From a virus, in IMG/VR virus record IMGVR_UViG_3300031517_000001, positions 1 through 30,508 of that record: a stretch of 30,508 nt of DNA; one strand, given 5' to 3'. Positions within the stretch are counted from its first letter, which is position 1. The number at the start of each line of letters is the position of its first letter. Below are positions 3,016 to 30,325 of this stretch, in pieces. The translations under genes and the position numbers were made by a program. Under the pieces are notes generated by a model. It saw nothing but the letters and a program-made list of their open reading frames with translations, searched no databases and was not told the origin of the DNA.

Positions 3016-5922
3016 CTAGCGTACAGCAGCAGCAGCAGCCGTCACAACGCCGGACTTTCTTTTATTTCTATACGGTGTTGTGACAGGCGTTCCGAGAAAC
3101 TCAAACACCGGCGCGGCGCGGTCTGCGTACCGATTGCGGATGCCGGTCGTTCGTAGTCGAGCCCGCTCAACGTTGACCAGCCGGTAGACGCGCACCCGCT
3201 TCCCGCCGTCTACCCGCTGCTGTTTCCCTTCGATGTCGATGCCGATCCGCTGGAAGAGCGCGCCCACAAACGACATCGGCTTCCGGCGGAAGTCTTCGCG
3301 CACCTTGACCCCCAGCGCGGCGTGGATCAACAACCGGTTGCGCTCGACGAGATCGACAAACTCTTCGGTGATTGCAATTTCTGCACCTTCTTCAATCCGC
3401 AATTTCAGCGCGGCAAGCAGCATATTGAACCAGATCGCAAACAGCGCAAACCGGTTGCGGTCGGCGCTGAAACGCCGCGTCGCCTCCACCTCGTCCAGCG
3501 CCTTCGCAACCTCTGCGTCCTCCACCGCTGCAAGCCGTTGCGCCGCGCCGTATGCGCCGCGCTCGTCGTCGAGCACCAGATCGGCGTCAACGTCGATGCC
3601 GTAGCGCTCTTCCAGTTCGACCTTCCGCTCTGCGTCGCGCTTTTGCTCTTCCGTTTTCGCATCATCCGGCGTCGGCGCGTTGGCGATGCGCTCGGCTCGT
3701 TCGCGTTCGCGGGCGGCGCGCGCTTCGTTAAGCGTCCGGTGCATCTTACGTCGTTCGTCGCCGGTTATTTCCGGTTTGTCTCGGTCGTCGTGCACCTCGA
3801 CGCCCTCGGTGATATACGAACCGACAAAGTTCTCAAAGAACCGGTTCTTCTGCGCCGCAGTTTTGGCTTTGACAACACAGTACAGATCGAGATAGACGCG
3901 ATCCCACTCCGTCGCCGGTTCCGACGCGCCGTTCGCGCGCGAAATGCGGAAGTCATCTTCCAGTTCGCGCAGTTTCGCCAGATCGCGGTACGCCTCCGGC
4001 GATGTCGGTTCGTTCATTCGCTTGGTCTCAACGTACACGTTGATCTCGCGCTCAAGCGGATTGCGAATACGCCCCAGTTGCTGGCGGAAATCATCCACAT
4101 CGCCGACGCCGACGCCGTTTCTGGCGATCCCGAACAGTGCGAACCCCCCAACGTCAATCGAGACGCCGGTGCCGACGGACGGCGAATAAATGAATACATC
4201 AACGTCTCTCAGAATATCGTTGATGTGCTCAAGCGTTTCGTTGTTATTCTCGCTTGTTTCTGAGGTGATCTTCAGTATTCGCGCGTCCGGCAGAAACTGT
4301 CGGTAGAACAATTCCGCGCGGTCGGCGTCGGCGCGTGTGTTGCACGCAAGCGCGATTTTCCACGCATTGGTTTCGTACCACTCCAGCGACTTCTGGAGTA
4401 CGTCTTCCGGCGTTGGCAGTAGTACGAGATGGTCGATTGCGCGATGCGCGTACTCGTTTTCGACGTAGGCTATCGGCTGGTCGGGAAACGCAGACTGAAT
4501 GAACGTCAGCGTCGCTTCGCCAACATCGGCGTCGGCGAGAATGATCAGCCGCGCCTTGCGCAGGTGCTCCATCAGCGCGCCGACAGCCGAGACTTTGCGG
4601 CTTTTCAGATTGCGGTCGTTGACGATTGCTTTCAACACTTGTTCGATCTCGTCAACGATCACGAGATCATACGGCGCGTCTGTCTCGATTTTGTCGAGAC
4701 TGTGGATGGTCGTTGCGACGCGCGGGGCGTTGGTGATCCACTTTCCGTCTTCGTAGTACGGCGTGAGGTTCAGCCGCGCAGCGCTCTGGCGCACCAGCGA
4801 GACGCGGTGCCCCACAGACAACACGCGCGGGTAGCATTTCGCCGCCTCCGCCAGCCACTGTGTTTTCCCAGTTCCTTTTGCAGAACGAATTACAACGATG
4901 TTGGGGTACTGATCGTCGGGGTCAATCTCGATGTCGAGGTAGCGCTGATTGATGCGCATCGCGTCGGGCAGTTCCGGCGACGTAACGTACCCGCCGCGCA
5001 AGCCGGGGATCGTCCCTTCAAACCCGTACTGTCGGGCGAGGTTGACCAAGACGCCGATGCCGCTCTCGACGTGATCGGGCTTCCGGTGCTTTTCCCAATC
5101 ATACGTCCAACCGTCGAGCACCTCGGTCGCGTCCTCTTCCGGCAGCGCGGACTGGATCGCCCACACCGCCGCCAGCCACATATTGTACTCAAGTCCGTCT
5201 CCCGGTATATACCGCAGCAACGTCTCGATTGTCTCGCGCGTCGCCGCGCCGCCGACGCGCTTCGGCGCAAGGAGCGGACGGCGGGCGAACGCGGCGAAAT
5301 CGGCGAGGTCGTAGTAGCGGTCGCTGTTGCGGATGACGGTGACGGGCTTCTTCTGCGGTCGCTGCTTCCAGTTGTAACTCCCGATCACCCGGATCGACCG
5401 CGCCGCGTCGCTCGTGTTGTCGAGCGTCCAGCCGTAGCGCGCGGCGGTGATGCGCAGTTGCGCCTCGACGCCCGCTTGCACCGGCGCAACGTCATTGACC
5501 CAACGCGGTTCGCGCAGAACCCACATCGGCATCAGACCGTTGCCGGTGTGGACGACGAGCGTCGGTTCCGGCAAGCCGCTTTCCTTCAACAGCCGGAGTG
5601 CGTCGTCTTTCGACGCGGGGAGTTCGTCTTTCGCGTGCGCGTCGGAACGGATGTCGATGTCGGCGGTGATGACGCGCTGGAGGTGTGCAAGTTTGGCGCT
5701 GCCGGACGATCCGGGGTCTGGAATCTTATTCTGCGACGCGCGCTTGATGTAGATGTCGTATACGAGGTGTTTCTCGATATGCTTGACGATTTCGGCGCGC
5801 TGCGAGAGGCTGAATGTCTGACATTTGAAGCGACCGTCGGTCAACTTGACGCTGACGGTCGTATATGCGTCGGCATCGTCGCCGTACAGTAAGTCGAGGT
5901 AATCTGCAATTGAGATGGACAT
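3016..5922 (-). CDS. Primase-helicase replication initiator (AEP primase, PriCT-2-like, SF2 helicase; resembles CyRepA1-type proteins)
   Basis: A 968-residue replication protein. Residues about 1-220 look like an archaeo-eukaryotic primase: ADIDIRSD near 87-94 would hold the catalytic Asp pair, and RVIGSYNWK near 178-186 the late motif. Residues about 230-300 resemble a PriCT-2 domain (MWLAAVWAIQ). A helicase core follows: Walker A SAKGTGKT at 347-354, Walker B VIVDE at 421-425, an ACNTRADAD strand near 527, and motif VI-like QQLGRIR at 614-620. This order is known from plasmid replication proteins of the CyRepA1 family and from origin-binding helicases. The C-terminal tail, from residue 947, is encoded by a palindromic element (VTTPYRNKRKSGVVT) followed by a short Ala run. 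The ATG is preceded by AAGGAG. It has its own promoter at 6009-6037. Specific origin binding is inferred, not seen. Confidence 0.8.
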   Translation of the reverse strand: MSISIADYLDLLYGDDADAYTTVSVKLTDGRFKCQTFSLSQRAEIVKHIEKHLVYDIYIKRASQNKIPDPGSSGSAKLAHLQRVITADIDIRSDAHAKDELPASKDDALRLLKESGLPEPTLVVHTGNGLMPMWVLREPRWVNDVAPVQAGVEAQLRITAARYGWTLDNTSDAARSIRVIGSYNWKQRPQKKPVTVIRNSDRYYDLADFAAFARRPLLAPKRVGGAATRETIETLLRYIPGDGLEYNMWLAAVWAIQSALPEEDATEVLDGWTYDWEKHRKPDHVESGIGVLVNLARQYGFEGTIPGLRGGYVTSPELPDAMRINQRYLDIEIDPDDQYPNIVVIRSAKGTGKTQWLAEAAKCYPRVLSVGHRVSLVRQSAARLNLTPYYEDGKWITNAPRVATTIHSLDKIETDAPYDLVIVDEIEQVLKAIVNDRNLKSRKVSAVGALMEHLRKARLIILADADVGEATLTFIQSAFPDQPIAYVENEYAHRAIDHLVLLPTPEDVLQKSLEWYETNAWKIALACNTRADADRAELFYRQFLPDARILKITSETSENNNETLEHINDILRDVDVFIYSPSVGTGVSIDVGGFALFGIARNGVGVGDVDDFRQQLGRIRNPLEREINVYVETKRMNEPTSPEAYRDLAKLRELEDDFRISRANGASEPATEWDRVYLDLYCVVKAKTAAQKNRFFENFVGSYITEGVEVHDDRDKPEITGDERRKMHRTLNEARAARERERAERIANAPTPDDAKTEEQKRDAERKVELEERYGIDVDADLVLDDERGAYGAAQRLAAVEDAEVAKALDEVEATRRFSADRNRFALFAIWFNMLLAALKLRIEEGAEIAITEEFVDLVERNRLLIHAALGVKVREDFRRKPMSFVGALFQRIGIDIEGKQQRVDGGKRVRVYRLVNVERARLRTTGIRNRYADRAAPVFEFLGTPVTTPYRNKRKSGVVTAAAAAVR
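3041..3084 (-). repeat. Palindromic element copy 1, in frame inside the primase-helicase gene
   Basis: 44 bases with arms GTCACAACGC and GGTGTTGTGAC, extended inward by CCG/CGG to a 12-bp stem with one G-T wobble. It encodes residues 947-961 of the helicase, VTTPYRNKRKSGVVT. It sits near the extreme C-terminus, where an insertion is likely to be tolerated. Confidence 0.92.
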
Positions 5923-6072: not shown

Positions 6073-6101
6073 TTGACAAACCGGCGGGCGTGTGGTATAG
6101 T
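6073..6101 (+). promoter_or_regulatory. Sigma70-type promoter, plus strand (divergent pair A)
   Basis: TTGACA at 6073-6078, 17 bases, TATAGT at 6096-6101, with TGG immediately before the -10 (extended -10 type). It drives the gene at 6137. Confidence 0.9.
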
Positions 6102-6136
6102 ATAGGCGTGATAACTAGTACATAAGGAGGACAACA

Positions 6137-6445
6137 ATGCTCAAGGTTGATTGGATTGGACACGGGATCGTTATCGTTGACGACGGGAACGGGAACGTAG
6201 ACATTCGGTATCTGGTTAGCGATTTCCTTCGCGGCACCGGGTATTCCGAAGAGGTGGAGCGGCTGGTTCGCGTTCTTTTCGACCTTCGCGCGGTTGGGTT
6301 GGAGGCTCGTCAGACTGATGGTCGTTGGAACGCGACCGCTACTATCGAGATTGACGCTTGGACGGTTGTACCCCACGCAGGCGAAGGTGACACTATAATG
6401 GACGCGCTGAGCAATCTTATTTGCAACATCATCAAAAAGGACTAA
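6137..6445 (+). CDS. Small early protein, GEGDT family member 1
   Basis: 102 residues; ATG preceded by AAGGAGG. Function unknown. The C-terminal half reads as beta-beta-alpha: ARQTDGRWNATATIEID, then AGEGDTIMDALSNLI. The same pattern (Trp-containing strand, then G-E-G-x-T-x3-A-[IV]) recurs in the next two genes, which are therefore paralogues. The fold outline resembles HicB-like and phage ABA-sandwich domains, where a short strand leads into a 'GdTp-x-x-A' helix; this is pattern recognition only. The gene is a self-contained cassette with its own promoter and terminator, as expected of a phage moron gene. It is divergent from the primase-helicase and shares its regulatory box. Confidence 0.8.
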   Translation: MLKVDWIGHGIVIVDDGNGNVDIRYLVSDFLRGTGYSEEVERLVRVLFDLRAVGLEARQTDGRWNATATIEIDAWTVVPHAGEGDTIMDALSNLICNIIKKD

Positions 6446-6459
6446 CATTCCCCGCCTTC

Positions 6460-6493
6460 GCGCCCCGGTACATCGCCGGGGCGCTTTTCTTTT
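6460..6493 (+). terminator. Intrinsic terminator after the 6137 gene
   Basis: GCGCCCCGG and CCGGGGCGC form a 9-bp perfect stem around a 7-base loop, followed by TTTTCTTTT. Confidence 0.93.
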
Positions 6494-6506
6494 CCCTTCT
6501 CTCCTC

Positions 6507-6535
6507 TTGACAACCGCGCTGAAGCGCGGTATACT
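6507..6535 (+). promoter_or_regulatory. Sigma70-type promoter with a dyad in the spacer
   Basis: TTGACA at 6507-6512, 17 bases, TATACT at 6530-6535. The spacer holds a perfect dyad CCGCGC-TGAA-GCGCGG, which would place a repressor site between -35 and -10. Confidence 0.9.
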
Positions 6536-6572
6536 GTTGGTGTGACAATCATCTATCATAAGGAGGTGTACA

Positions 6573-6926
6573 ATGCTCAAGTCGGTCAAAATCGAACGGT
6601 TCAAGGAATACTCTGAGTTGATGCGCGTCGTATCGCGCTCCGAGGCTTGCCCGGCGACGAACAAAGATCGGATTGTTCCGCTCAACTACGAACTGCTGAT
6701 CGGGTCTCATTTACCCGAATCAGATTGGCATCGTTTGGGCGCTCTAGTTGTTGCCCTCTTCCGAAGTTTCGCCGTCGTCGATGTTGAAGTTTGGCAGACC
6801 GACGCCGGCATTTGGGTCGCCGATGCGCTCGTCGATTTCGGGGGCGTTCGGCGACTGCGGAAGGGCGAGGGCGACACCCCGCTGCACGCGGTGATCGAAC
6901 TCATCACCGATATTCAACGCTACTAA
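6573..6926 (+). CDS. Small early protein, GEGDT family member 2
   Basis: 117 residues; ATG preceded by AAGGAGG. Function unknown. It is a paralogue of its neighbours: VEVWQTDAGIWVADALVDF aligns with the strand region of the previous gene, and KGEGDTPLHAVIELI with its helix. The N-terminal 45 residues differ. The cassette has its own promoter and terminator and lies between two similar cassettes. Host takeover or superinfection functions are common for such genes, but nothing in the sequence shows which. Confidence 0.8.
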   Translation: MLKSVKIERFKEYSELMRVVSRSEACPATNKDRIVPLNYELLIGSHLPESDWHRLGALVVALFRSFAVVDVEVWQTDAGIWVADALVDFGGVRRLRKGEGDTPLHAVIELITDIQRY

Positions 6927-6946
6927 CCCTCGCTTCCTCGCTTTCG

Positions 6947-6980
6947 GCGCTCCGCACCAAATGCGGGGCGCTTTTCTTTT
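6947..6980 (+). terminator. Intrinsic terminator after the 6573 gene
   Basis: GCGCTCCGCA pairs with TGCGGGGCGC (one T-G pair) around a 4-base loop, followed by TTTTCTTTT. Confidence 0.9.
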
Positions 6981-6985
6981 CCCTC

Positions 6986-7014
6986 TTGACAACCGCGCGA
7001 TAGTGCGGTATACT
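6986..7014 (+). promoter_or_regulatory. Sigma70-type promoter with a dyad in the spacer
   Basis: TTGACA at 6986-6991, 17 bases, TATACT at 7009-7014. The spacer carries CCGCGC-GATA-GTGCGG, a near-perfect dyad in the same place as in the 6507 promoter. Confidence 0.9.
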
Positions 7015-7051
7015 ACAAGCGTAATCGCAATCACACTAAAGGAGGTCAACG

Positions 7052-7447
7052 ATGAAGACTATCTATCACACAAAAGACGTTTGGATGAACCGCTACTCAA
7101 TCAAAATTGAACCAATCCCCGGAACCTGGGACGCGCACGTTCGGGTGTACTACAATGAGACCCCAGAGAAAAACGATCAGTGGCAAGCCTGCTGGGGCGC
7201 GGATAACTTCCTTTCCACAACCCCGATCCCGGCGATAGATCGCCGAGAAACGGCGAAGGCTATCGAAAATCTTATCGTTTACTACGGTCTCGTTGACATC
7301 ACACTATTTGATACACGCGACGGGTGGGGCGTACACATCACCCTCTGCCCAGAACTCGAAAATCAATATCTTCGCGGCGAGGGCGCAACGCCCGCCGACG
7401 CGATCCGCAACAGCGCTCCGTACCCGCCGCCGCTGCGGAATGTGTAA
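7052..7447 (+). CDS. Small early protein, GEGDT family member 3
   Basis: 131 residues; ATG preceded by AAAGGAGG. Function unknown. It shares the strand-helix signature of the two genes before it: ITLFDTRDGWGVHITL, then RGEGATPADAIRN. The N-terminal half is longer and rich in Trp and Tyr. The protein ends in a short Pro-rich tail. It is the last of three autonomous cassettes and converges on the end of the late operon. Confidence 0.8.
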   Translation: MKTIYHTKDVWMNRYSIKIEPIPGTWDAHVRVYYNETPEKNDQWQACWGADNFLSTTPIPAIDRRETAKAIENLIVYYGLVDITLFDTRDGWGVHITLCPELENQYLRGEGATPADAIRNSAPYPPPLRNV

Positions 7448-7468
7448 CGCCCTCCGTCTCACCGAAAA

Positions 7469-7502
7469 CGCCTCAGTGAGCAACTGGGGCGCTTTTCTTT
7501 TT
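7469..7502 (+). terminator. Terminator between the 7052 gene and the converging late operon
   Basis: CGCCTCAG pairs with CTGGGGCG, followed by TTTTCTTTTT on the plus strand. It overlaps the last codons of the small minus-strand gene ending at 7473. On the minus strand the hairpin has no T-run, so it mainly serves the plus gene. Confidence 0.8.
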
Positions 7503-7634
7503 CCTCGCCCGTCGTCCCCGCTCAATCCGCACCATCAGCAGCACCAGCACCGCCGTCGCTGCGACTTGCGCCGCGTCGGGGTGAACGAACGCGAGTGCGA
7601 ACGCGCTGATAAGCAACAGAACGTCGAGTTTCAT
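7473..7634 (-). CDS. Very small two-helix membrane protein at the end of the lysis cassette
   Basis: 53 residues. ATG at 7632-7634 overlaps the stop of the upstream gene as ATGA, with GGAGG 7 bases before it, so it is translationally coupled. Two hydrophobic stretches (about residues 5-18 and 22-34) flank a short HPDAAQ turn, followed by a strongly basic tail (RIERGRRARKKK). The shape and the place next to the endolysin suit a holin, antiholin or other lysis accessory. The gene is small but its start, coupling and position support it. Confidence 0.7.
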   Translation of the reverse strand: MKLDVLLLISAFALAFVHPDAAQVAATAVLVLLMVRIERGRRARKKKSAPVAH

Positions 7635-15759: not shown

Positions 15760-16164
15760 TCACAACACGCGCGTCCAGTCGGTCGGCAGCGATGCGGGAA
15801 CGTCGCGCGCCGGGAACGCTGAAATCTCAATCGCAATCGGCGCCGTACCCGTTCCGGCGATGCGTACAAACATATGCGATGCGTGCGTTTTCGCTGCGTA
15901 TGCCTCCGCGCCGGTAACGAAAATCTCGTAGGTGCGGTTAGACGCCAGCGATGCGATTGCCTTATCCGTCAACTGCGTCGAGTTGTTTGTGTTGTTTGTG
16001 TCGTTGACGTGCACTTGCAACGACGCGGAACCGGTCACCGTCCCGGTGTGTGCAACGATACGCACCGCCTGCGCATTCACGATGCTGACAACCGGCGTAT
16101 CCGCCCCGGAAGCCGCTGCGTTGAAGTAACGCAGCAGCGGCTGAATGGTCTCCTGAACAAGCAT
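15760..16164 (-). CDS. Head-associated protein of unknown function (decoration protein candidate)
   Basis: 134 residues from the ATG at 16162-16164, with GGAGGAGGG upstream. The sequence is beta-rich, with a Thr/Asn-rich stretch (HVNDTNNTNNSTQLTD) and several strands such as PVVSIVNAQAVRIVAHTGTV. It lies directly after the major capsid gene, where decoration or stabilisation proteins are common. The frame stays open upstream to 16263, through the palindromic element at 16187-16230, so an N-terminally extended form from a TTG is possible but has no ribosome site as good. Confidence 0.55.
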   Translation of the reverse strand: MLVQETIQPLLRYFNAAASGADTPVVSIVNAQAVRIVAHTGTVTGSASLQVHVNDTNNTNNSTQLTDKAIASLASNRTYEIFVTGAEAYAAKTHASHMFVRIAGTGTAPIAIEISAFPARDVPASLPTDWTRVL

Positions 16165-16186
16165 TGTATGTCCCTCCTCCGGCGTC

Positions 16187-16230
16187 GTCACAACACCTGC
16201 ATCTCTTTTATTTATACAGCGTGTTGTGAC
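16187..16230 (-). repeat. Palindromic element copy 2
   Basis: 44 bases, arms GTCACAACAC/GTGTTGTGAC. The coding strand would read VTTRCINKRDAGVVT, open and in frame with the downstream gene. On that strand it ends about 6 bases upstream of the GGAGG of the 16164 start. Confidence 0.92.
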
Positions 16231-16268
16231 AGCGCCCGTTTTCTGATCAGCCGTTGTCCTCAACCGCC

Positions 16269-16312
16269 GTCACAACACCGCATCTTCTTTTATCTATATG
16301 CAGTGTTGTGAC
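16269..16312 (-). repeat. Palindromic element copy 3
   Basis: 44 bases with perfect 10-base arms. The inner bases GCAT/ATGC extend the stem. The strand reads VTTLHIDKRRCGVVT. It is the middle one of three copies in the gap between the capsid gene and the next gene. Confidence 0.92.
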
Positions 16313-16367
16313 AGTCCGCCTCACCCAAACGTAGTACTCCCCCGCGCCCGCCGGCGTCATCAGCAGC

Positions 16368-16411
16368 GTCACAACACGCGATCTTCTTTTATTTCTATAG
16401 CGTGTTGTGAC
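16368..16411 (-). repeat. Palindromic element copy 4
   Basis: 44 bases; arms extended by GC/GC to 12 bp. The strand reads VTTRYRNKRRSRVVT. It begins 11 bases after the capsid stop codon on the minus strand. The 258-base gap 16165-16422 holds copies 2-4 and no other gene. Confidence 0.92.
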
Positions 16412-16422
16412 GCCCTTGCTTA

Positions 16423-17583
16423 CTACTGCCCGGCTGCGATCTCGACGAACGGGCTGACGGTGTTCGTACCCGCGCCGTCGGCGAGGATCAGCGGCGCGTT
16501 GACCAGCGGCGCGCCGTCGATCCGCACGCCGAACAACCACACCGACTGCCGCTTGAGGAAGCGCACGTGCTCGCTGAAGGCGACGCTGAACGACGCGCGC
16601 TCAACAAAGGCGTAGTACGACAGATCGGCGAGGATGAGCGATCCCGCGCCGGTTACCGCCGGCAGGTGCTCGCTGTACGCGATTGGGATACCGGCAAGCG
16701 TATCGCCGTACACCAGCGACTGCCCGTTGACGGTATAGAGCAGCGTATCGCCCAGCCGCGTCGCCATCAAGCGCGACCGCCAGAACGGGTGGGCGATCCA
16801 GACCGCGGTAGCGCTGCCGGGCAGCAGACGCTGGATCATTGCGAGGATGGTGTTCGTATCATTGTCCGCTTGCGAACTGCTTCCCGTCGCCCGCGTCACG
16901 CTGATCGACGCGGGGTGCCCAACGATCCCGCGCGGCTGCCCGACGCCGGTTCCCCGCAGCATCACGCGCGCTTTCAGCACCGCGTAGGCGCGTCCGAACA
17001 GCGTAACGAGCGTGTCTTCCAACGCCTGCGGCGCGTCGGAGATCAGTTCGGTTGACGCCGCAACGTAGGCGTCCGCCGCGTGCGGGCGGAAGATGCGCTG
17101 CTCGAAGCGCGGTTCGCTTTCCGCAACGTCTGCGCTCTGTTCGCGCCAGACCAGCCGCACCCCGCCCACCAGCGCGCTGCTCTCGACGTTCGGCGCTTGG
17201 TCTTGCTCCAGAACCGGCAGCGCCAACTCCGCCGCGTTGGTGCGCAGCATCAACGGACCGCGTCCGGCGGCAACCAACTGGTCGAACAGCATAGGCGCGC
17301 CGACCGCGCGGATGCGTTCCTCGAACTGGGTGGGCACCAGAAAGCCGCCGCTTGCGCCGGTGGTTTCGTCCAGCGCTTTGCTGCTCTTGTAGACCGCGCG
17401 CAGACGCTGAACGTCGTTGGTTGCTACGCACTTCAAGAAGTCGCCGAACGAACCCTCGCCTTCGGCGACGGGTGTTGTCGCCACGCCGACGCTCTGCGCC
17501 TTCACCGCCGCCGCCACCTCGTCACGCAGCCGTGCGGCGATCTCGGCGGCGAGTTCCGATTGGCTCATCACAATCTCCGTCAT
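16423..17583 (-). CDS. Major capsid protein, HK97 fold
   Basis: 386 residues. The N-terminal 50 residues are helical and charged (ELAAEIAARLRDEVAAAVKA), as in HK97-type delta or scaffold segments. They are followed by FGDFLKCVATND and TTGASGGFLVPTQFEERI, the classic entry to the HK97 capsid domain. Further family features are the AYVAASTELISDAPQALE helix, GRAYAVLKARVMLRGTGVGQ and the C-terminal VRIDGAPLVNAPLILADG. The protease gene lies just upstream. The first ATG overlaps its own purine-rich Shine-Dalgarno region; an ATG five codons later has better spacing, so the exact start is uncertain. Confidence 0.93.
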   Translation of the reverse strand: MTEIVMSQSELAAEIAARLRDEVAAAVKAQSVGVATTPVAEGEGSFGDFLKCVATNDVQRLRAVYKSSKALDETTGASGGFLVPTQFEERIRAVGAPMLFDQLVAAGRGPLMLRTNAAELALPVLEQDQAPNVESSALVGGVRLVWREQSADVAESEPRFEQRIFRPHAADAYVAASTELISDAPQALEDTLVTLFGRAYAVLKARVMLRGTGVGQPRGIVGHPASISVTRATGSSSQADNDTNTILAMIQRLLPGSATAVWIAHPFWRSRLMATRLGDTLLYTVNGQSLVYGDTLAGIPIAYSEHLPAVTGAGSLILADLSYYAFVERASFSVAFSEHVRFLKRQSVWLFGVRIDGAPLVNAPLILADGAGTNTVSPFVEIAAGQ

Positions 17584-22004: not shown

Positions 22005-22010
22005 ATTGTA
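22005..22010 (-). promoter_or_regulatory. Candidate -10 box of the late promoter
   Basis: On the minus strand TACAAT is found, with no TTGACA-like -35 at 16-18 bases. A late promoter needing an activator would look like this. It is the only -10-like element in the gap 21946-22061 before the 14-kb late operon. Confidence 0.35.
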
Positions 22011-22061
22011 CAGCAAAAACCCAGCATTTTCGTACGCCAGATCGCGGCGCGTGCGCGGGGT

Positions 22062-22104
22062 GTCACAACGCCTGCTTCTCTTTGATTAAGAGAAGTGTTG
22101 TGAC
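22062..22104 (-). repeat. Palindromic element copy 5 (43 bases)
   Basis: Arms GTCACAACG and GTGTTGTGAC. An inner inverted repeat CTTCTCTT/AAGAGAAG makes it a nearly continuous hairpin. It is one base shorter than the others, so its frame no longer ends in VVT. It lies in a non-coding gap, 11 bases from the terminator at 22116. Confidence 0.88.
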
Positions 22105-22945: not shown

Positions 22946-22989
22946 GTCACAACACGCTGTATAAATAAAAGAGAATGATGTGTTGTGAC
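22946..22989 (+). repeat. Palindromic element copy 6, opposite orientation
   Basis: 44 bases, perfect 10-base arms. The AAATAAAAGA core is on the plus strand, unlike all other copies. It follows the plus-strand gene ending at 22864. Its VTT frame contains a TGA, so it could not be read through. It lies in a convergent non-coding gap. Confidence 0.92.
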
Positions 22990-23051: not shown

Positions 23052-23729
23052 CTAGTCGTGTTTGACGAACGGGGTGACGGCGAATGTGTGACCATACCCG
23101 TCCTCGAACGCCAGCCAGCCTTTGTCGTTCCGGCGAACGCTCAGGCGCGCCTTCGCCCCGAACAGCCGAAACCCTTTCCGCAACTGGGCGACGCTGTACC
23201 AGTTCTCATCATCGATGTCCTTCAACTGGAAGAGTTCGTATCCTTCGCGTGGATTACTCACCAACGCAACGAACTCATTCACGCTCCACTCTTTGACGTT
23301 CTTTATCCGGGGATTCTCAACGATCTGCACCCACCCGCGGCTCTCGTCGGTCAGCACCGCGAGCATCCGCTTGACCGGGACGCGCGGACAGTAGAATTCC
23401 GGCAACTTCACCTCGCAGTACTCGCCCGCCACCTCTGCGCCAAGGTGCTCGTCGTACCGCGTGGTCTGCGCGGTGACGCATACGCGGTTTCCGTCAACCT
23501 CGATGCTCCCGATCCACGTCGCCTCCGCCAGCGCCTCAAGCACCTTCGCCGCCTTCGGTGATAAGGAACCGCGACCGCGCAGGTACACCAGGTTATTATA
23601 CTTCTTGGCGACCAGCATTACGCCGTCGGTCGCCAGTATCACGCCGTCATCGACGTGAATTCCGGGGTAGGAGCCACCTTGAACGTCGATGGCGACGTTC
23701 AGAAAGTGAGCAAGCTCGTTGCTAGGCAT
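23052..23729 (-). CDS. Replication-type protein, possibly sliding-clamp-like
   Basis: 225 residues; ATG preceded by AAAGGACG. The segment HFLNVAIDVQGGSYPGIHVD, then DGVILATDGVMLVAKKY, recalls the first domain of DNA polymerase III beta clamps, where a strand ends in 'ATDG-x-x-[LM]'. It is followed by PKAAKVLEALAEA and strands (IGSIEVDGNRVCVTA). The C-terminus KGWLAFEDGYGHTFAVTPFV resembles the closing strands of a clamp. Length equals that of two-domain T4-type clamps. If right, it would serve the family A polymerase. The resemblance is partial, and an unrelated beta-rich protein is possible. It has a terminator, and may be read from the promoter at 24577. Confidence 0.45.
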   Translation of the reverse strand: MPSNELAHFLNVAIDVQGGSYPGIHVDDGVILATDGVMLVAKKYNNLVYLRGRGSLSPKAAKVLEALAEATWIGSIEVDGNRVCVTAQTTRYDEHLGAEVAGEYCEVKLPEFYCPRVPVKRMLAVLTDESRGWVQIVENPRIKNVKEWSVNEFVALVSNPREGYELFQLKDIDDENWYSVAQLRKGFRLFGAKARLSVRRNDKGWLAFEDGYGHTFAVTPFVKHD

Positions 23730-25022: not shown

Positions 25023-25056
25023 AAGCCCCATCCGGCAACGGATGGGGCTTTTCATT
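25023..25056 (+). terminator. Intrinsic terminator after the 24716 gene
   Basis: AAGCCCCATCCG and CGGATGGGGCTT form a 12-bp stem with a 4-base loop, followed by TTCATTTCT. It touches the stop codon of the converging minus gene and may serve both directions. Confidence 0.9.
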
Positions 25057-26089
25057 TCTCCTTACACTTCCCGCAATACCCGTACCGCCGCGCAGCCCCG
25101 TACTGCTGCTGCGTCAACGCAGCATCGCAGCGCGGGCAGCGGTACGCCAGCGCAGCACGCTGCTGCTGATGCTCAGCAGTATGATGCTGCTGGCGCTGCT
25201 GATGCTGGTGCTGGTGCTGGTGCTGATGCTGCTGCTGATGCTGCTGCTGGTGCTGATGCTGGTGCTGGTGCTGGAGCATATGATCAGCAGCATCAGCAGT
25301 ATGCTGCCGGTGCTGGTGCTGCTGCTGACCGGCAGTATGCTGCCGGTGCTCAGCAGCATCAGCAGTATGCTCAGCAGCATCAGCACTGTGCTGATGCTGG
25401 TGCTGCTGGTGCTGCTGCTGGTGCTGCTGGTGCTGCTGCTGGTGCTGCTGCTGGTGCTGCTGATGCTGATGCTGATGCTGATGCTGCTGATGCTGATGCT
25501 GACCAGCAGTATGCTGCCGGTGCTCAGCAGTATGCTGCAGCATATGCTCAGCAGCATCAGCACTGTGCTGCTGGTGCTGCTGCTGGTGCTGCTGATGCTG
25601 ATGCTGCTGGTGCTGCTGGTGCTGGTCAGCAGTATGCTTGAGCATATGCTCAGCAGCATCAGCAGTATGCTGAGCAGCATCAGCAGTATGCTGCTGCGCA
25701 CTGCTGTGCAGCAACGTCGCAAGCGTATACGCCAGCGTCGCCAGCGGCGCGCTCTCCAGCACCGACAGCGCCAGCAGCAGCACATCAAACGACGCCGTAA
25801 ACGCCGCCGCGCTGCTCAACCCCGCCGGAACGCGCGCGGCATAGTCGGCGAGGACGTTGAGCGTGATCGCGGTGAGCACCGCCGCCCGCGCCACGCGCGA
25901 CGCCAACCGTTGGCGCTGCGGATCGGCGAACGCCGCGAACGCCAGCGACAGATACGCCAACTCGATCCCCACCGCCGCCAGCCAGCCTGCGAGGTCGCCG
26001 CGCGTCGGCGCAAGCGCGCGCTGGACGCCCAGCGCGCTTGGCGCGCTCAGCAGCAGCACTGATAGCGTTGCGAGAATGCGGAACTTCAC
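25052..26089 (-). CDS. Membrane protein with a His/Gln-rich repeat tract and C-terminal zinc ribbon
   Basis: 345 residues from a GTG preceded by AAAGGAG. Residues about 1-130 hold roughly four hydrophobic helices (6-24, 33-54, 66-84, 97-127). Residues about 131-310 consist almost only of His, Gln and Ala, with recurring blocks such as HTADAAEHMLQHTA and HQHQQHQQQ. The last 35 residues form a zinc ribbon (CPRC and CGKC). The four-helix region loosely recalls membrane proteins coded next to FtsK/TraB-type genes in conjugative elements. The His tract could bind metal ions or act as a flexible spacer. The codon repeat is described as a separate feature. It is the last gene of the accessory operon. 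Confidence 0.75.
   Translation of the reverse strand: MKFRILATLSVLLLSAPSALGVQRALAPTRGDLAGWLAAVGIELAYLSLAFAAFADPQRQRLASRVARAAVLTAITLNVLADYAARVPAGLSSAAAFTASFDVLLLALSVLESAPLATLAYTLATLLHSSAQQHTADAAQHTADAAEHMLKHTADQHQQHQQHQHQQHQQQHQQHSADAAEHMLQHTAEHRQHTAGQHQHQQHQHQHQHQQHQQQHQQQHQQHQQQHQQHQHQHSADAAEHTADAAEHRQHTAGQQQHQHRQHTADAADHMLQHQHQHQHQQQHQQQHQHQHQHQHQQRQQHHTAEHQQQRAALAYRCPRCDAALTQQQYGAARRYGYCGKCKEK
25144..25690. repeat. CTG/CAG-type trinucleotide-rich repeat tract
   Basis: About 550 bases built from CTG, GTG, ATG and GCT units (plus strand), with imperfect higher-order repeats such as CAGCAGCATCAGCAGTATGC and dyads around GAGCATATGCTC. It lies within the 25052-26089 gene, codes for the His/Gln/Ala tract, and leaves long frames open on both strands. 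The tract is likely to expand and contract by slippage. Confidence 0.9.
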
Positions 26090-26107: not shown

Positions 26108-26151
26108 GTCACAACACGCATTCTTCTTTTATTTCTATAACGTGTTGTGAC
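26108..26151 (-). repeat. Palindromic element copy 7
   Basis: 44 bases, perfect 10-base arms, extended by one G/C pair. The strand reads VTTRYRNKRRMRVVT. It fills the gap between the PAPS-reductase-like gene and the membrane protein gene, starting 10 bases after the stop and ending a few bases before the ribosome site AAAGGAG. Confidence 0.93.
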
Positions 26152-27174: not shown

Positions 27175-29019
27175 TCAGTCATCACTCTTCAACCGCGCCG
27201 CGCGCGCCCAGTCGTCGTTGCGGAACCGCGCACCTAACGCCCGCGCCTGCTCTCGACTAACGCCCGCCCGCTGGAGCGCCGCCAGCGCAGCGAGCAGCGT
27301 ATCGTCCCCGGCCGTCGGGGACGGATCAACCCCCGTCCCCGCGCTTTCTGAAGCCAAATCAACCCCCTCAATCCGTCCCCGCGCATCAGAAAGCGTCGGG
27401 ACGGGGCTAGGGGCGTTTTGCGGCAACACAGCGCCTTGGGACGGCGCGATGTCGTCCCCGTCCCCGCTCTCGGAAACCTCCCCAAATTGGGCGTTTTCGG
27501 CGCTTTTTGCGGGTTCGGGACGGTTGGGGACGGGGACGGATACGTTCCGTCCCCAGGCATCAGAGAGCCTTGGGACGGCTCCGCCCCCGTCCCCAGGCAT
27601 CAGAAAGCCTTGGGACGGTACAATTTCGTCCCGCGGCTTGCTGACGCCTTGGGACGGATCAACCACCGTCCCCGCGCTTGCTGATGCCAAATCCGCCCCC
27701 TCGTTCCGTCCCCGCGCATCAGAAAGCGTCGGGACGGGCTTCTGCTCATCAGCCGTCACAACACTTGCTTCTCTTTTAATTAAAGGAGGTGTTGTGACAG
27801 CACTGAACAACAACGTCTCCAGCAGCGCCGCATCGTTGCGCGCGTTGATCAGTGCGTCGAAGTCTCCGACCAACGCGGACGTGCGTACCACAAACTGCTC
27901 GTTGTTGTGCCGCACAACGAATAACCCGCGCTCCCCCGGCGGCGGCGGCAGTTGCGACGGTCGGTACAGCAGCGCCTTCGGATCGCGCACCCCCAGCGCC
28001 GGCGCGTCCTGGCTTCCGTCCACCAGCGCGCCGGCGATGAGGGTTGATAGGTTCATTCGCCACTCCAGCCGCTTGCCGGTTGGGGTTTGCATCGAGACGA
28101 TCACCCGAATACCCAACGCCCGCGCCTTGCTCACCAGCGCGATGAGCAGTCGTTCCGTCTCGTCAACGACATCGATGATGTCCGTCGCCAGTACGATCAG
28201 CAGCGGCAGCGGATCGGGCGCGGTCTGATTGTACTCCTCGACGCTGCGCACCCCCGCACCGAGCAGCAATCCGAACCGACGCTTTGCTTCCTCGTTGATT
28301 GCGCCGATCGCGTCCAGTATCCGCTGCTGTCCCTCGTCGCCGTAGCCCCCGGCAGGCGGAAACAACATCTGCGGCAGTCGGGCGAGGTTCGGCGTCAGCC
28401 AGTCCCCCTTCCCGTCGAGGATCGCCCAGCGCACCCCGCGCTCGTTCAGCAGCGCCGCGAACCACAGCCGCAGCAGGTGATCCTTCCCGCAGCCGCTCGT
28501 GCCGTACAGCCCGATGTGGAGCGCGTCGCGCCCGAAGTCCAGCCAGCGGAAACGCCCGCTTTGGTCGCGCCCCAACGGAACCGCGAACCGCGCCGGGCGC
28601 GGGTCGGCGGGGTTGAACACAGAGGGAGAAGGAAGCGTCACAACATCATCTTCTCTTTTATTTCTATAGGGTGTTGTGACAACGGGCGTAGGTGTTGTGA
28701 CAGCAGCGGCGGCTGCGGCAGCAGCGGCGGCAGTCGCAGCCTCGGCGGTCTCATCAACCGTCACAACAGCATCTTCTTCTTTATTTATACGCGGTGTTGT
28801 GACAGTACGCAGCGCCGTCGGCAGCAAGCCGCGCGCTTCGAGTTGGCGCTCCACCCGGTACGCGGCGTCGTTCAGCGCGTGGTAGACACGCGCCGCCGCG
28901 TCGCGGTTGGTCGCCGCGAGCAGCGCGAGGAACGCGAAGACGCCGGCAATCGGGTCAACGCTGAACGCAACCGCGACGCCGAACAACATCAGAAATACCG
29001 CTTTGCCGCTGACATTCAC
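27175..29019 (-). CDS. FtsK/HerA-like DNA translocase, membrane-anchored
   Basis: 614 residues from the GTG at 29017-29019, which overlaps the previous stop as GTGA, with GGAGG upstream. Residues 7-36 form a hydrophobic hairpin. Residues about 73-128 are a low-complexity linker with an Ala run and palindromic-element peptides. The ATPase core follows: LYGTSGCGKDHLL (Walker A, residues 173-180), AILDGKGDW, LPLLIVLATDIIDV (Walker B position), and RALGIRVIVSMQTPTGKRLE, the FtsK/TraB segment. The residue after the Walker Lys is Asp instead of Ser/Thr. The C-terminal 200 residues are a repeat-rich linker ending in a small helical domain (LAALQRAGVSREQARALGAR). It probably moves DNA at the membrane. 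Confidence 0.85.
   Translation of the reverse strand: MNVSGKAVFLMLFGVAVAFSVDPIAGVFAFLALLAATNRDAAARVYHALNDAAYRVERQLEARGLLPTALRTVTTPRINKEEDAVVTVDETAEAATAAAAAAAAAAVTTPTPVVTTPYRNKREDDVVTLPSPSVFNPADPRPARFAVPLGRDQSGRFRWLDFGRDALHIGLYGTSGCGKDHLLRLWFAALLNERGVRWAILDGKGDWLTPNLARLPQMLFPPAGGYGDEGQQRILDAIGAINEEAKRRFGLLLGAGVRSVEEYNQTAPDPLPLLIVLATDIIDVVDETERLLIALVSKARALGIRVIVSMQTPTGKRLEWRMNLSTLIAGALVDGSQDAPALGVRDPKALLYRPSQLPPPPGERGLFVVRHNNEQFVVRTSALVGDFDALINARNDAALLETLLFSAVTTPPLIKREASVVTADEQKPVPTLSDARGRNEGADLASASAGTVVDPSQGVSKPRDEIVPSQGFLMPGDGGGAVPRLSDAWGRNVSVPVPNRPEPAKSAENAQFGEVSESGDGDDIAPSQGAVLPQNAPSPVPTLSDARGRIEGVDLASESAGTGVDPSPTAGDDTLLAALAALQRAGVSREQARALGARFRNDDWARAARLKSDD
27318..27738. repeat. Array of CCGTCCC...GGGACGG palindromic repeats with an 88-bp direct repeat, within the FtsK-like gene
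   Basis: A 32-base imperfect palindrome (arms CCGTCCCC and GGGACGG, centre GCATCAGAAAGC or a variant) occurs at 27373, 27547, 27587, 27626 and 27706, with partial copies near 27333, 27430 and 27666. From 27547 the period is 39-40 bases. A block of 88 bases at 27318-27405 is repeated at 27651-27738 with about eight differences; the offset of 333 keeps the frame. It codes for the repeated peptide PVPTLSDARGR-x-EG-x-DLAS. Confidence 0.88.
27755..27798 (-). repeat. Palindromic element copy 8, in frame inside the FtsK-like gene
   Basis: 44 bases, perfect arms. It encodes residues 408-422, VTTPPLIKREASVVT, in the linker just after the ATPase domain. The centre (CTCTTTTAATTAAAG) resembles copy 5. 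Confidence 0.92.
28637..28680 (-). repeat. Palindromic element copy 9, in frame inside the FtsK-like gene
   Basis: 44 bases, with one arm carrying one change (GTCACAACAT). It encodes residues 114-128, VTTPYRNKREDDVVT, in the N-terminal linker. Confidence 0.92.
28691..28701 (-). repeat. Half copy of the palindromic element
   Basis: GGTGTTGTGAC only, lying 10 bases beside copy 9. It encodes VTTP at residues 107-110. It looks like a remnant arm or the start of a tandem copy. Confidence 0.75.
28760..28803 (-). repeat. Palindromic element copy 10, in frame inside the FtsK-like gene
   Basis: 44 bases with one change in the left arm (GTCACAACAG). It encodes residues 73-87, VTTPRINKEEDAVVT, next to the membrane-anchor segment. 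Confidence 0.9.
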
Positions 29020-29654: not shown

Positions 29655-29886
29655 ACCACATCCACCCTTTCTTTTTCAACGTCCACTTCCCCACCAGATA
29701 CGCGCCGTCCGGCGCTTTGTCTCCAGGCGCGTATTCCGGCGTCGTTGATCCCTCACGCACGAAGAGCACAAAAACACCGGCGGCGCGCGACATTGGATCG
29801 CGTTTTGCTTTGTTCTCGCAACGCACGAGTGCGCGCTCCCACTCTTCCAACTCTTTATGCGGAATTTCTTCAATCTTCCACCACAT
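29647..29886 (-). CDS. Small Trp/Lys-rich protein of unknown function
   Basis: 79 residues; ATG preceded by AAAGGAAG. It begins MWWKIEEIPHKELEEWERAL and ends YLVGKWTLKKKGWMWYE, so aromatic residues cluster at both ends. The middle has a strand GVFVLFVREGS. It overlaps both neighbours (17 bases upstream, 8 downstream), which supports it being translated. No family or function recognised. Confidence 0.7.
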   Translation of the reverse strand: MWWKIEEIPHKELEEWERALVRCENKAKRDPMSRAAGVFVLFVREGSTTPEYAPGDKAPDGAYLVGKWTLKKKGWMWYE

Positions 29887-30325
29887 TTCGATGCTTCCTT
29901 TCTAACTCCTTCACCAGTAGTTGTACAACCGTCTCGTGGACATACCCCCACTTCAGACACACCGCCGCCAGATCGCGGTACGGTTGCCGCAGCCGCTTCG
30001 CAGCGGCGTGGAGGTCGGAAACGACGGTTAGCACAACATCATCCAAACGCCAGCACAACCCCAGATGCGCTTCTGTCGCTGCGTCGGGATCGGTGTACGT
30101 TTCTCCGACCGCCGCGCTCTCGTTGAGCGCCGGGATGTGGTAGCGTAGGAAGTAGCGGATGTACGTCGGTCGGTACCCGACCGTCAGCATCAGTTCTGCG
30201 ACCGCCTGCGCGTCGTTGCGCAGTTTGTGGCGCGTCCAGCGCAGCAGTCGCGTCTCGTCTCCATCAACGCCGCGCAAGCGTTCGGCGAAGAACGACATCG
30301 CGGCGCGCAGATCGTCGTCACGCAT
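29870..30325 (-). CDS. Helical protein of unknown function
   Basis: 151 residues from the ATG at 30323-30325, preceded by AAAGGGGACG; an upstream ATG at 30358 would overlap the previous gene more and lacks a ribosome site. The sequence is mostly helical: RAAMSFFAERLRG, RLLRWTRHKLRNDAQAVAEL, VVLTVVSDLHAAAKRLRQPY and VHETVVQLLVKELERKHR. The segment DLAAVCLKWGYVHETVVQL could be a helix-turn-helix, so a DNA-binding role is possible but not shown. It overlaps both neighbours in the operon. Confidence 0.65.
   Translation of the reverse strand: MRDDDLRAAMSFFAERLRGVDGDETRLLRWTRHKLRNDAQAVAELMLTVGYRPTYIRYFLRYHIPALNESAAVGETYTDPDAATEAHLGLCWRLDDVVLTVVSDLHAAAKRLRQPYRDLAAVCLKWGYVHETVVQLLVKELERKHRNVVED

Follow-up and report, generated by a model that had tools for sequence, protein, structure and literature searches.

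What are three palindromic elements doing in a row between the major capsid protein gene of a phage and the gene that follows it? The window, by which we mean the whole analysed stretch of 30,508 nucleotides, carries the capsid gene at 16423..17583 on the minus strand (Pfam PF05065 Phage_capsid, E 1.1e-29) and, on the other side of the gap, a minus-strand gene of 134 aa at 15760..16164, recognised from its ORF and by gene calling written for this analysis; the longer ORF at 15760-16263 matched no Pfam family, and a PHROG match was limited to one, at E 0.28. The first-pass annotation had described a gap of 258 bases with three elements about 38 and 55 bases apart, and had read them as hairpins that tune capsid mRNA. 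The description was accurate: the gap (16165-16422) runs from the capsid stop at 16423 to the start codon at 16164, and its elements S8 (16368..16411), S9 (16269..16312, the middle copy) and S10 (16187..16230), all on the minus strand, 44 bp long and with exact arms, are separated by 55 and 38 bases. Direct reading of the sequence also places S8 11 bases past the capsid stop, as had been claimed, and S10 lies 22 bases ahead of the next start codon, with a Shine-Dalgarno-like GGAGGAG between S10 and the ATG. The copy numbers 2, 3 and 4 used in that annotation follow the order along the window, copy 1 being the element at 3041-3084. The gap belongs to a system that extends over the whole genome, and a local hairpin reading is too narrow for it.

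A family of elements at shared places in related phages

The element consists of two inverted arms around a core, GTCACAACAC-N24-GTGTTGTGAC, over 44 bp. Ten exact copies of GTCACAAC-gap-GTTGTGAC occur in the whole window (nine of 44 bp, one of 43 bp) and none of 100 shuffled windows held an exact copy; GTCACAAC alone occurs 21 times against 1.03 expected. The arms, of 10-11 bp, are nearly invariant (TGTCACAACAC / GTGTTGTGACA), and the core of 22-24 bp is nearly constant in length and AT-rich, with a G+C content of 31% in a window of 62%. The core is also directional, its reading on the minus strand, which is that of the late genes, being close to TATARATAAAAGAAGATG. Outside the capsid gap, S1 (3041..3084, minus strand), the first copy along the window, lies in frame in the C-terminal tail of a primase-helicase gene (3016..5922, minus strand), and S2 (28760..28803), S3 (28637..28680) and S4 (27755..27798), all on the minus strand, lie in frame within an FtsK/SpoIIIE-like gene (27175..29019, minus strand; phrog_1358, E 6.6e-17). 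S5 (26108..26151, minus strand) stands 10 bases past one gene and 18 ahead of the next, S6 (22062..22104, minus strand) is the 43-bp copy and lies upstream of a late-promoter-like sequence, and S7 (22946..22989, plus strand), flanked by two convergent predicted terminators, is the single window copy in the opposite orientation. The cores of S4 and S6 are the two that are nearly symmetrical. Rfam models gave no match to the window at gathering score, the capsid gap found just two weak matches each among known phages and plasmids (E 0.2 to 0.8), and among the matches listed in a search of the open-licence literature none dealt with this group of phages or with the element.

A search of viral contigs for both 8-bp arms, correctly spaced, yielded 107 stretches, which together with the window gave 351 matches, 324 of them of 44 bp. 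A relaxed scan of the same sequences produced 373 candidates, of which 14 lacked the core and were dropped; the others include 170 distinct 44-mers, again with nearly invariant arms. Family counts refer to 25 contigs, the window and 24 others, G019 being excluded; 25 of 28 selected records were fetched. Across 216 matches in these contigs, the 8-bp arms showed no mismatch in 199, one in 16, two or three in none, and four in a single chance-like case, compared with 15 matches in a reversed-sequence control, all with three or four mismatches. The elements recur at the same places: at the end of the primase-helicase gene (S1), within the FtsK-like gene (S2-S4), before the gene at 25052-26089 (S5), upstream of the late operon (S6a, S6b), between the capsid gene and the next (S8-S10) and, for S7, about 60 nt downstream of the gene at 23052-23729 in most contigs. 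Only 17 of 202 elements stand at none of these places. With symmetrical cores and those of other lengths excluded, core similarity was 0.794 when one site was compared over contigs and 0.674 when different sites were compared, and such site-specific cores argue against copying or homogenisation of whole elements as the simple reason why the arms are alike.

Beyond the family, the 52.7-kb contig G019 holds a single element, and three of its 60 called genes match the window; that element (47863-47906, or 7863-7906 in L276) lies between two divergent predicted promoters, beside a relative of the gene at 23052-23729. A search of 152 non-family sequences for the same architecture with other arms gave one match, a Bifidobacterium locus with GTCACAAC arms (L161, about 749-1050), where four inverted pairs of GTCACAAC, each about 42 bp long, are probably unrelated to the element. 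A separate scan of genome contigs returned at least 120 stretches, about the order estimated by chance for 16 fixed bases; only its Chloroflexota loci served as entry points, and its loci are also among the control sequences. Two further observations concern the window itself. Dense repeats of the GCTGCTGAT type fill 25150-25700, within the gene at 25052-26089. Gene order in relatives suggests that the window ends, 1 and 30508, are close together on a circular map, and the window may therefore hold nearly all of a genome some 32 kb long.

Relatives of the capsid gap itself were collected by a search with the capsid protein, independent of the motif, which gave 64 loci; elements were counted in 50 of these and in the window. 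The 51 gaps contained three copies in 33 cases, four in 14, two in two, and five and one in one case each, and all 47 gaps readable as far as the next gene carried two to five copies; at the other four (L295, L059, L322, L323) the contig ends before that gene. Most of the 14 loci left out break off inside the capsid gene or just at its end, and L344, L345 and L348, also among the 14, are only about 28-30% identical; in L344, no element was found in the 700 bases past the stop, and L345 is readable only as far as its capsid match. Wherever related gaps could be read, the first copy lies 7-18 nt past the capsid stop, and the 63 capsid-gap copies in the 25 contigs comprise 55 in sense orientation, eight symmetrical and none reversed. 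One gap (L327) has a shortened element with both arms and almost no core, and lone half-sites, GTCACAACAG, lie in the spacers of several gaps.

Selection on the arms at the DNA level, and the question of RNA structure

Copies within protein genes offer a view of the element away from any gap, and 56 of the 202 elements lie within genes longer than 900 bp. In 17 FtsK-like genes (16 of full length and the partial one of G021), every exact copy is in frame 0 and falls in linkers between conserved parts of the protein. The 15 codon columns covered by arms in this gene had a third-base difference of 0.000 over 16 sequences, against 0.299 in other valine and threonine columns; the five columns in the helicase gene likewise had 0.000 over 13 sequences, against 0.355. 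Random draws reached values as low in none of 20000 trials for the FtsK-like gene and in four of 20000 for the helicase gene. No synonymous change was found over the 20 arm codon columns of the two genes, and three non-synonymous changes were found in FtsK-like arm codons. The arms are under selection at the DNA level. The C-terminal linker of the FtsK-like gene, whose length differs among relatives, also carries, at 27318-27738, several copies of another palindromic repeat, CCGTCCC...GGGACGG.

How does the hairpin reading of the capsid gap, under which the folded copies would shield the 3' end of the mRNA or take part in its processing and so set protein ratios, fare against this background? 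Part of the earlier claim stands. Copies follow the capsid gene in 47 of 47 readable gaps, the first of them close behind the stop and with sense orientation kept, and the RNA is predicted to fold: the mean energy of 115 distinct elements of the family is -15.3 kcal/mol at 37 C, and at 60 C it is -7.7. Given this position, orientation and predicted folding, it is plausible that the elements help to set how strongly the genes beyond the capsid gene are expressed. Among 60 distinct capsid-gap copies, moreover, inner-stem pairing amounted to 154 against 115.7 (sd 6.8) when halves were dealt anew, and to 0.458 in register against at most 0.304 with the partner column slid, and no such excess was seen at S5-S7 or S1-S4. 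The part that ties the element to capsid mRNA does not hold: the arms are kept equally well within two protein genes and in terminator-isolated gaps, where there is no capsid mRNA. The inner-stem covariation, significant on raw distinct sequences, was lost once cores differing by two bases or fewer were collapsed (38 against 34.4, sd 3.8, p 0.21); G-U pairs were without excess (39 against 42.4), A-C pairs were not depleted, and the pair 10-35 was broken in 19 of 39 distinct copies within genes. Because the pairing excess disappears on collapse and G-U pairs are not favoured, we treat the RNA structure of the element as unproven, and consider RNA hairpins unlikely as the account of these copies. 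The evidence points to a DNA site first, with any RNA role secondary.

Orientation relative to transcription

Orientation separates the elements by context. In DNA that is probably transcribed, meaning genes and same-direction gaps free of a predicted terminator, 120 elements have their core along transcription and three against it, compared with 24 along and 18 against in terminator-isolated gaps (symmetrical cores excluded from both); the contigs are related and the counts therefore not independent, and the terminators are predicted, so no probability is attached. By class, the 202 elements include 50 along, six symmetrical and none against within genes, where orientation is also tied to protein sequence; 70 along, 12 symmetrical and three against in same-direction gaps lacking a predicted terminator; 15 along, two symmetrical and 13 against in same-direction gaps after a terminator; and nine along, none symmetrical and five against in convergent gaps with two terminators. 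The other 17 lie in reverse-direction gaps (five), divergent gaps (three), at contig edges (eight) and in a convergent gap with one terminator (one). Another cause may be at work. Read in reverse, the core is rich in U, and elements in G002 and G020 are overlapped by terminators predicted on the reverse strand; the sense orientation may merely keep a U-rich core out of the mRNA.

Two conventional roles in transcription were examined and rejected. An intrinsic terminator acting along the gene direction is ruled out by the lack of a T run, and in the window no match of the terminator scan spans a whole element; two weak partial matches at single arms (16221-16235 and 22058-22073) are on the plus strand, against the late genes. 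The core, which is TATAAATA-like, resembles the late promoter box of T4. A promoter reading is nevertheless out: in four of 17 contigs (G001, G003, G004, G008) the nearest copy faces away from the late operon, and some cores, being symmetrical, lack the box. In G009, G014 and G027 the nearest copy, with one mismatch, also faces away, and in G023 the nearest perfect copy does so, but a one-mismatch sense copy is closer. The promoter reading is further countered by a separate late-promoter-like sequence (CTGGCGTACGAAAA, then TACAAT; 22005..22040, minus strand, the TACAAT coordinate counted by hand) between S6 and a holin-like gene, which is kept, ending in TACAAT or TATAAT, in 17 of 17 aligned contigs and whose motif occurs once in the window. 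The element is not the late promoter. The late-promoter-like sequence has no TTGACA and stands upstream of the holin-like, terminase and head genes; a single-subunit RNA polymerase found no match among the scanned genes, some small ORFs being outside the scan. Elements in G021 stand between small genes, every one of which has a predicted promoter and a predicted terminator to itself, the promoters lying outside the element. Three small genes in a row at 6073-7505 of the window, on the plus strand and thus opposite to the late genes, each have their own TTGACA-N17-TATA promoter and intrinsic terminator.

A probable protein-bound DNA site and its alternatives

From the patterns in the sequence, the element is probably a binding site on DNA for a putative protein. 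The three capsid-gap copies are members of a family of DNA sites that this phage group retains at some ten constant positions of its genome; each arm is most likely held by one of two subunits of the same DNA-binding protein, which the phage itself would encode. Since the core runs along transcription in probably transcribed DNA, we infer that the bound site may act on passing RNA polymerase in an orientation-dependent manner, as stoperators do; the two to five copies behind the capsid gene could in this way leave the head and tail genes farther downstream at a lower expression than the capsid gene itself. Such a roadblock is a tentative suggestion, possible rather than probable, since the orientation might also arise from keeping a U-rich core out of mRNA. 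The family reading as a whole, phage sites bound by protein and acting on transcription, strikes us as evenly balanced between right and wrong.

Two candidates for the binder are encoded in the window. One is a 151-aa protein (29870..30325, minus strand) in which alignment suggests two helix-turn-helix-like units; its best AlphaFold model (pLDDT 81) has two similar three-helix units, three of the five models being near 80 and the other two at 50 and 39. An orthologue matches PF12833 HTH_18 at E 0.0027, below Pfam's cut-off, and against solved structures the protein gave no significant Foldseek match and a best VIA-align Z of 3.2. The other candidate is the primase-helicase, which matches PF02399 Herpes_ori_bp (E 1.3e-9) over residues 339-494 only, has a primase-like N-terminus, and matches phrog_4913 (replication), phrog_3712 (replication origin binding) and phrog_2478 (DNA polymerase/primase); its C-terminal part is modelled poorly (pLDDT 58) and has no solved relative. 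No integrase was found among the genes scanned, and a lysogenic repressor is thus not evident.

The second candidate invites an account in terms of replication, in which the primase-helicase binds the arms and the AT-rich core opens, the elements being origins or loading points. Herpesvirus oriS has just such inverted recognition boxes around an AT-rich spacer, and the inverted arms around a core so much poorer in G+C than the window, the origin-binding family and primase-like N-terminus of the helicase, and the copy at the end of its gene all fit. A stem-loop 3' of a primase-helicase gene has, moreover, been proposed as used by the primase-helicase proteins of pRN1 and phage BIP-1, but these carry a different helicase family, SF3 (PMC4234260). 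About ten sites at several places speak against origins, skew at fourfold sites along the genome has no single clear shift, the helicase match and model are limited as described, and a link between orientation and transcription is not predicted. We regard replication sites as quite unlikely, and the narrower version, in which oriS-like start sites read by the primase-helicase are dispersed over the genome with some in frame in linkers, as more doubtful again.

Were the element a mobile or selfish palindrome comparable to REPINs, MITEs or the palindromic elements of Rickettsia, one that had spread through the genome and into coding linkers as well, this would account for the in-frame copies there, for the two to five copies per capsid gap and for the one copy in the almost unrelated phage contig G019. 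Rickettsia palindromic elements are read in frame within protein genes, and are longer and dispersed as mobile elements; ours are likewise in frame within genes, but occupy shared sites and have nearly invariant arms. The sites are common even to a contig whose helicase is 67% identical, decay ends at one mismatch and cores are site-specific, so that the non-shared positions and decaying copies that mark REPINs and MITEs were not seen, and the genes scanned include no transposase. The element is absent from all of 400 Chloroflexota genomes sampled evenly across the phylum, a result to be read with the proviso that the phylum, chosen with hot-spring mats in mind, may not be the host's. This explanation is very improbable. 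Recombination joints that allow gene cassettes to be swapped, comparable to the PeSL of T4-type phages, would fit the arrangement in G021, and a comparison of the window with G005, where the three capsid-gap elements are identical and the gene after them is 69% identical. Linkage across elements (rank correlations 0.40, 0.02, 0.32, 0.34 and 0.12), however, is not clearly below that at other junctions (-0.13 to 0.67), and of all these readings joints seem to us the most far-fetched.

Among known systems, the PeSL of T4-type phages resemble the element as repeated units between small gene cassettes, but a PeSL, as summarised where it is cited in PMC4503421, combines an early promoter with a stem-loop, whereas here predicted promoters lie outside the element. 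The SAS and ESAS of Cluster K mycobacteriophages are, like ours, spaced inverted repeats found at many places and conserved with neighbouring genes; they differ in being tied to start codons and in having a variable spacer, mostly of 4-13 bp (PMC3203893). Stoperators of Cluster A mycobacteriophages share with the element its many sites across the genome and an orientation linked to the direction of transcription, and they fail when reversed (PMC9283540). They are asymmetric 13-bp sites bound by a known lysogeny repressor (PMC9283540), whereas ours are 44-bp inverted repeats in which only the core is directional.

The closest kind that we found is a 17-bp dyad repeat of Corndog and other Cluster O mycobacteriophages, which likewise has invariant inverted arms, an AT-rich centre and many, mostly shared, sites, part of them within genes, in phages that are not evidently temperate (PMC4351075). 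The arms there are of 7 bp (TGTTCGG/CCGAACA) around a 3-bp centre, compared with 10-11 bp around 22-24 bp here, and the sequences are unrelated. The authors of that study gave the function as unknown and judged a transcriptional role unlikely (PMC4351075). The element shares features with Cluster O repeats and with stoperators and corresponds fully to neither. Dispersed invariant palindromic sites being already known from Cluster O, the family described here is an added example with much larger sites, and it corrects the view, natural enough, that the capsid gap houses a local cluster of mRNA hairpins. Two features make the question of what such sites do testable: the copies in protein linkers, whose arms have no synonymous freedom, and the link between orientation and transcription, which is slight in Cluster O repeats and present here.
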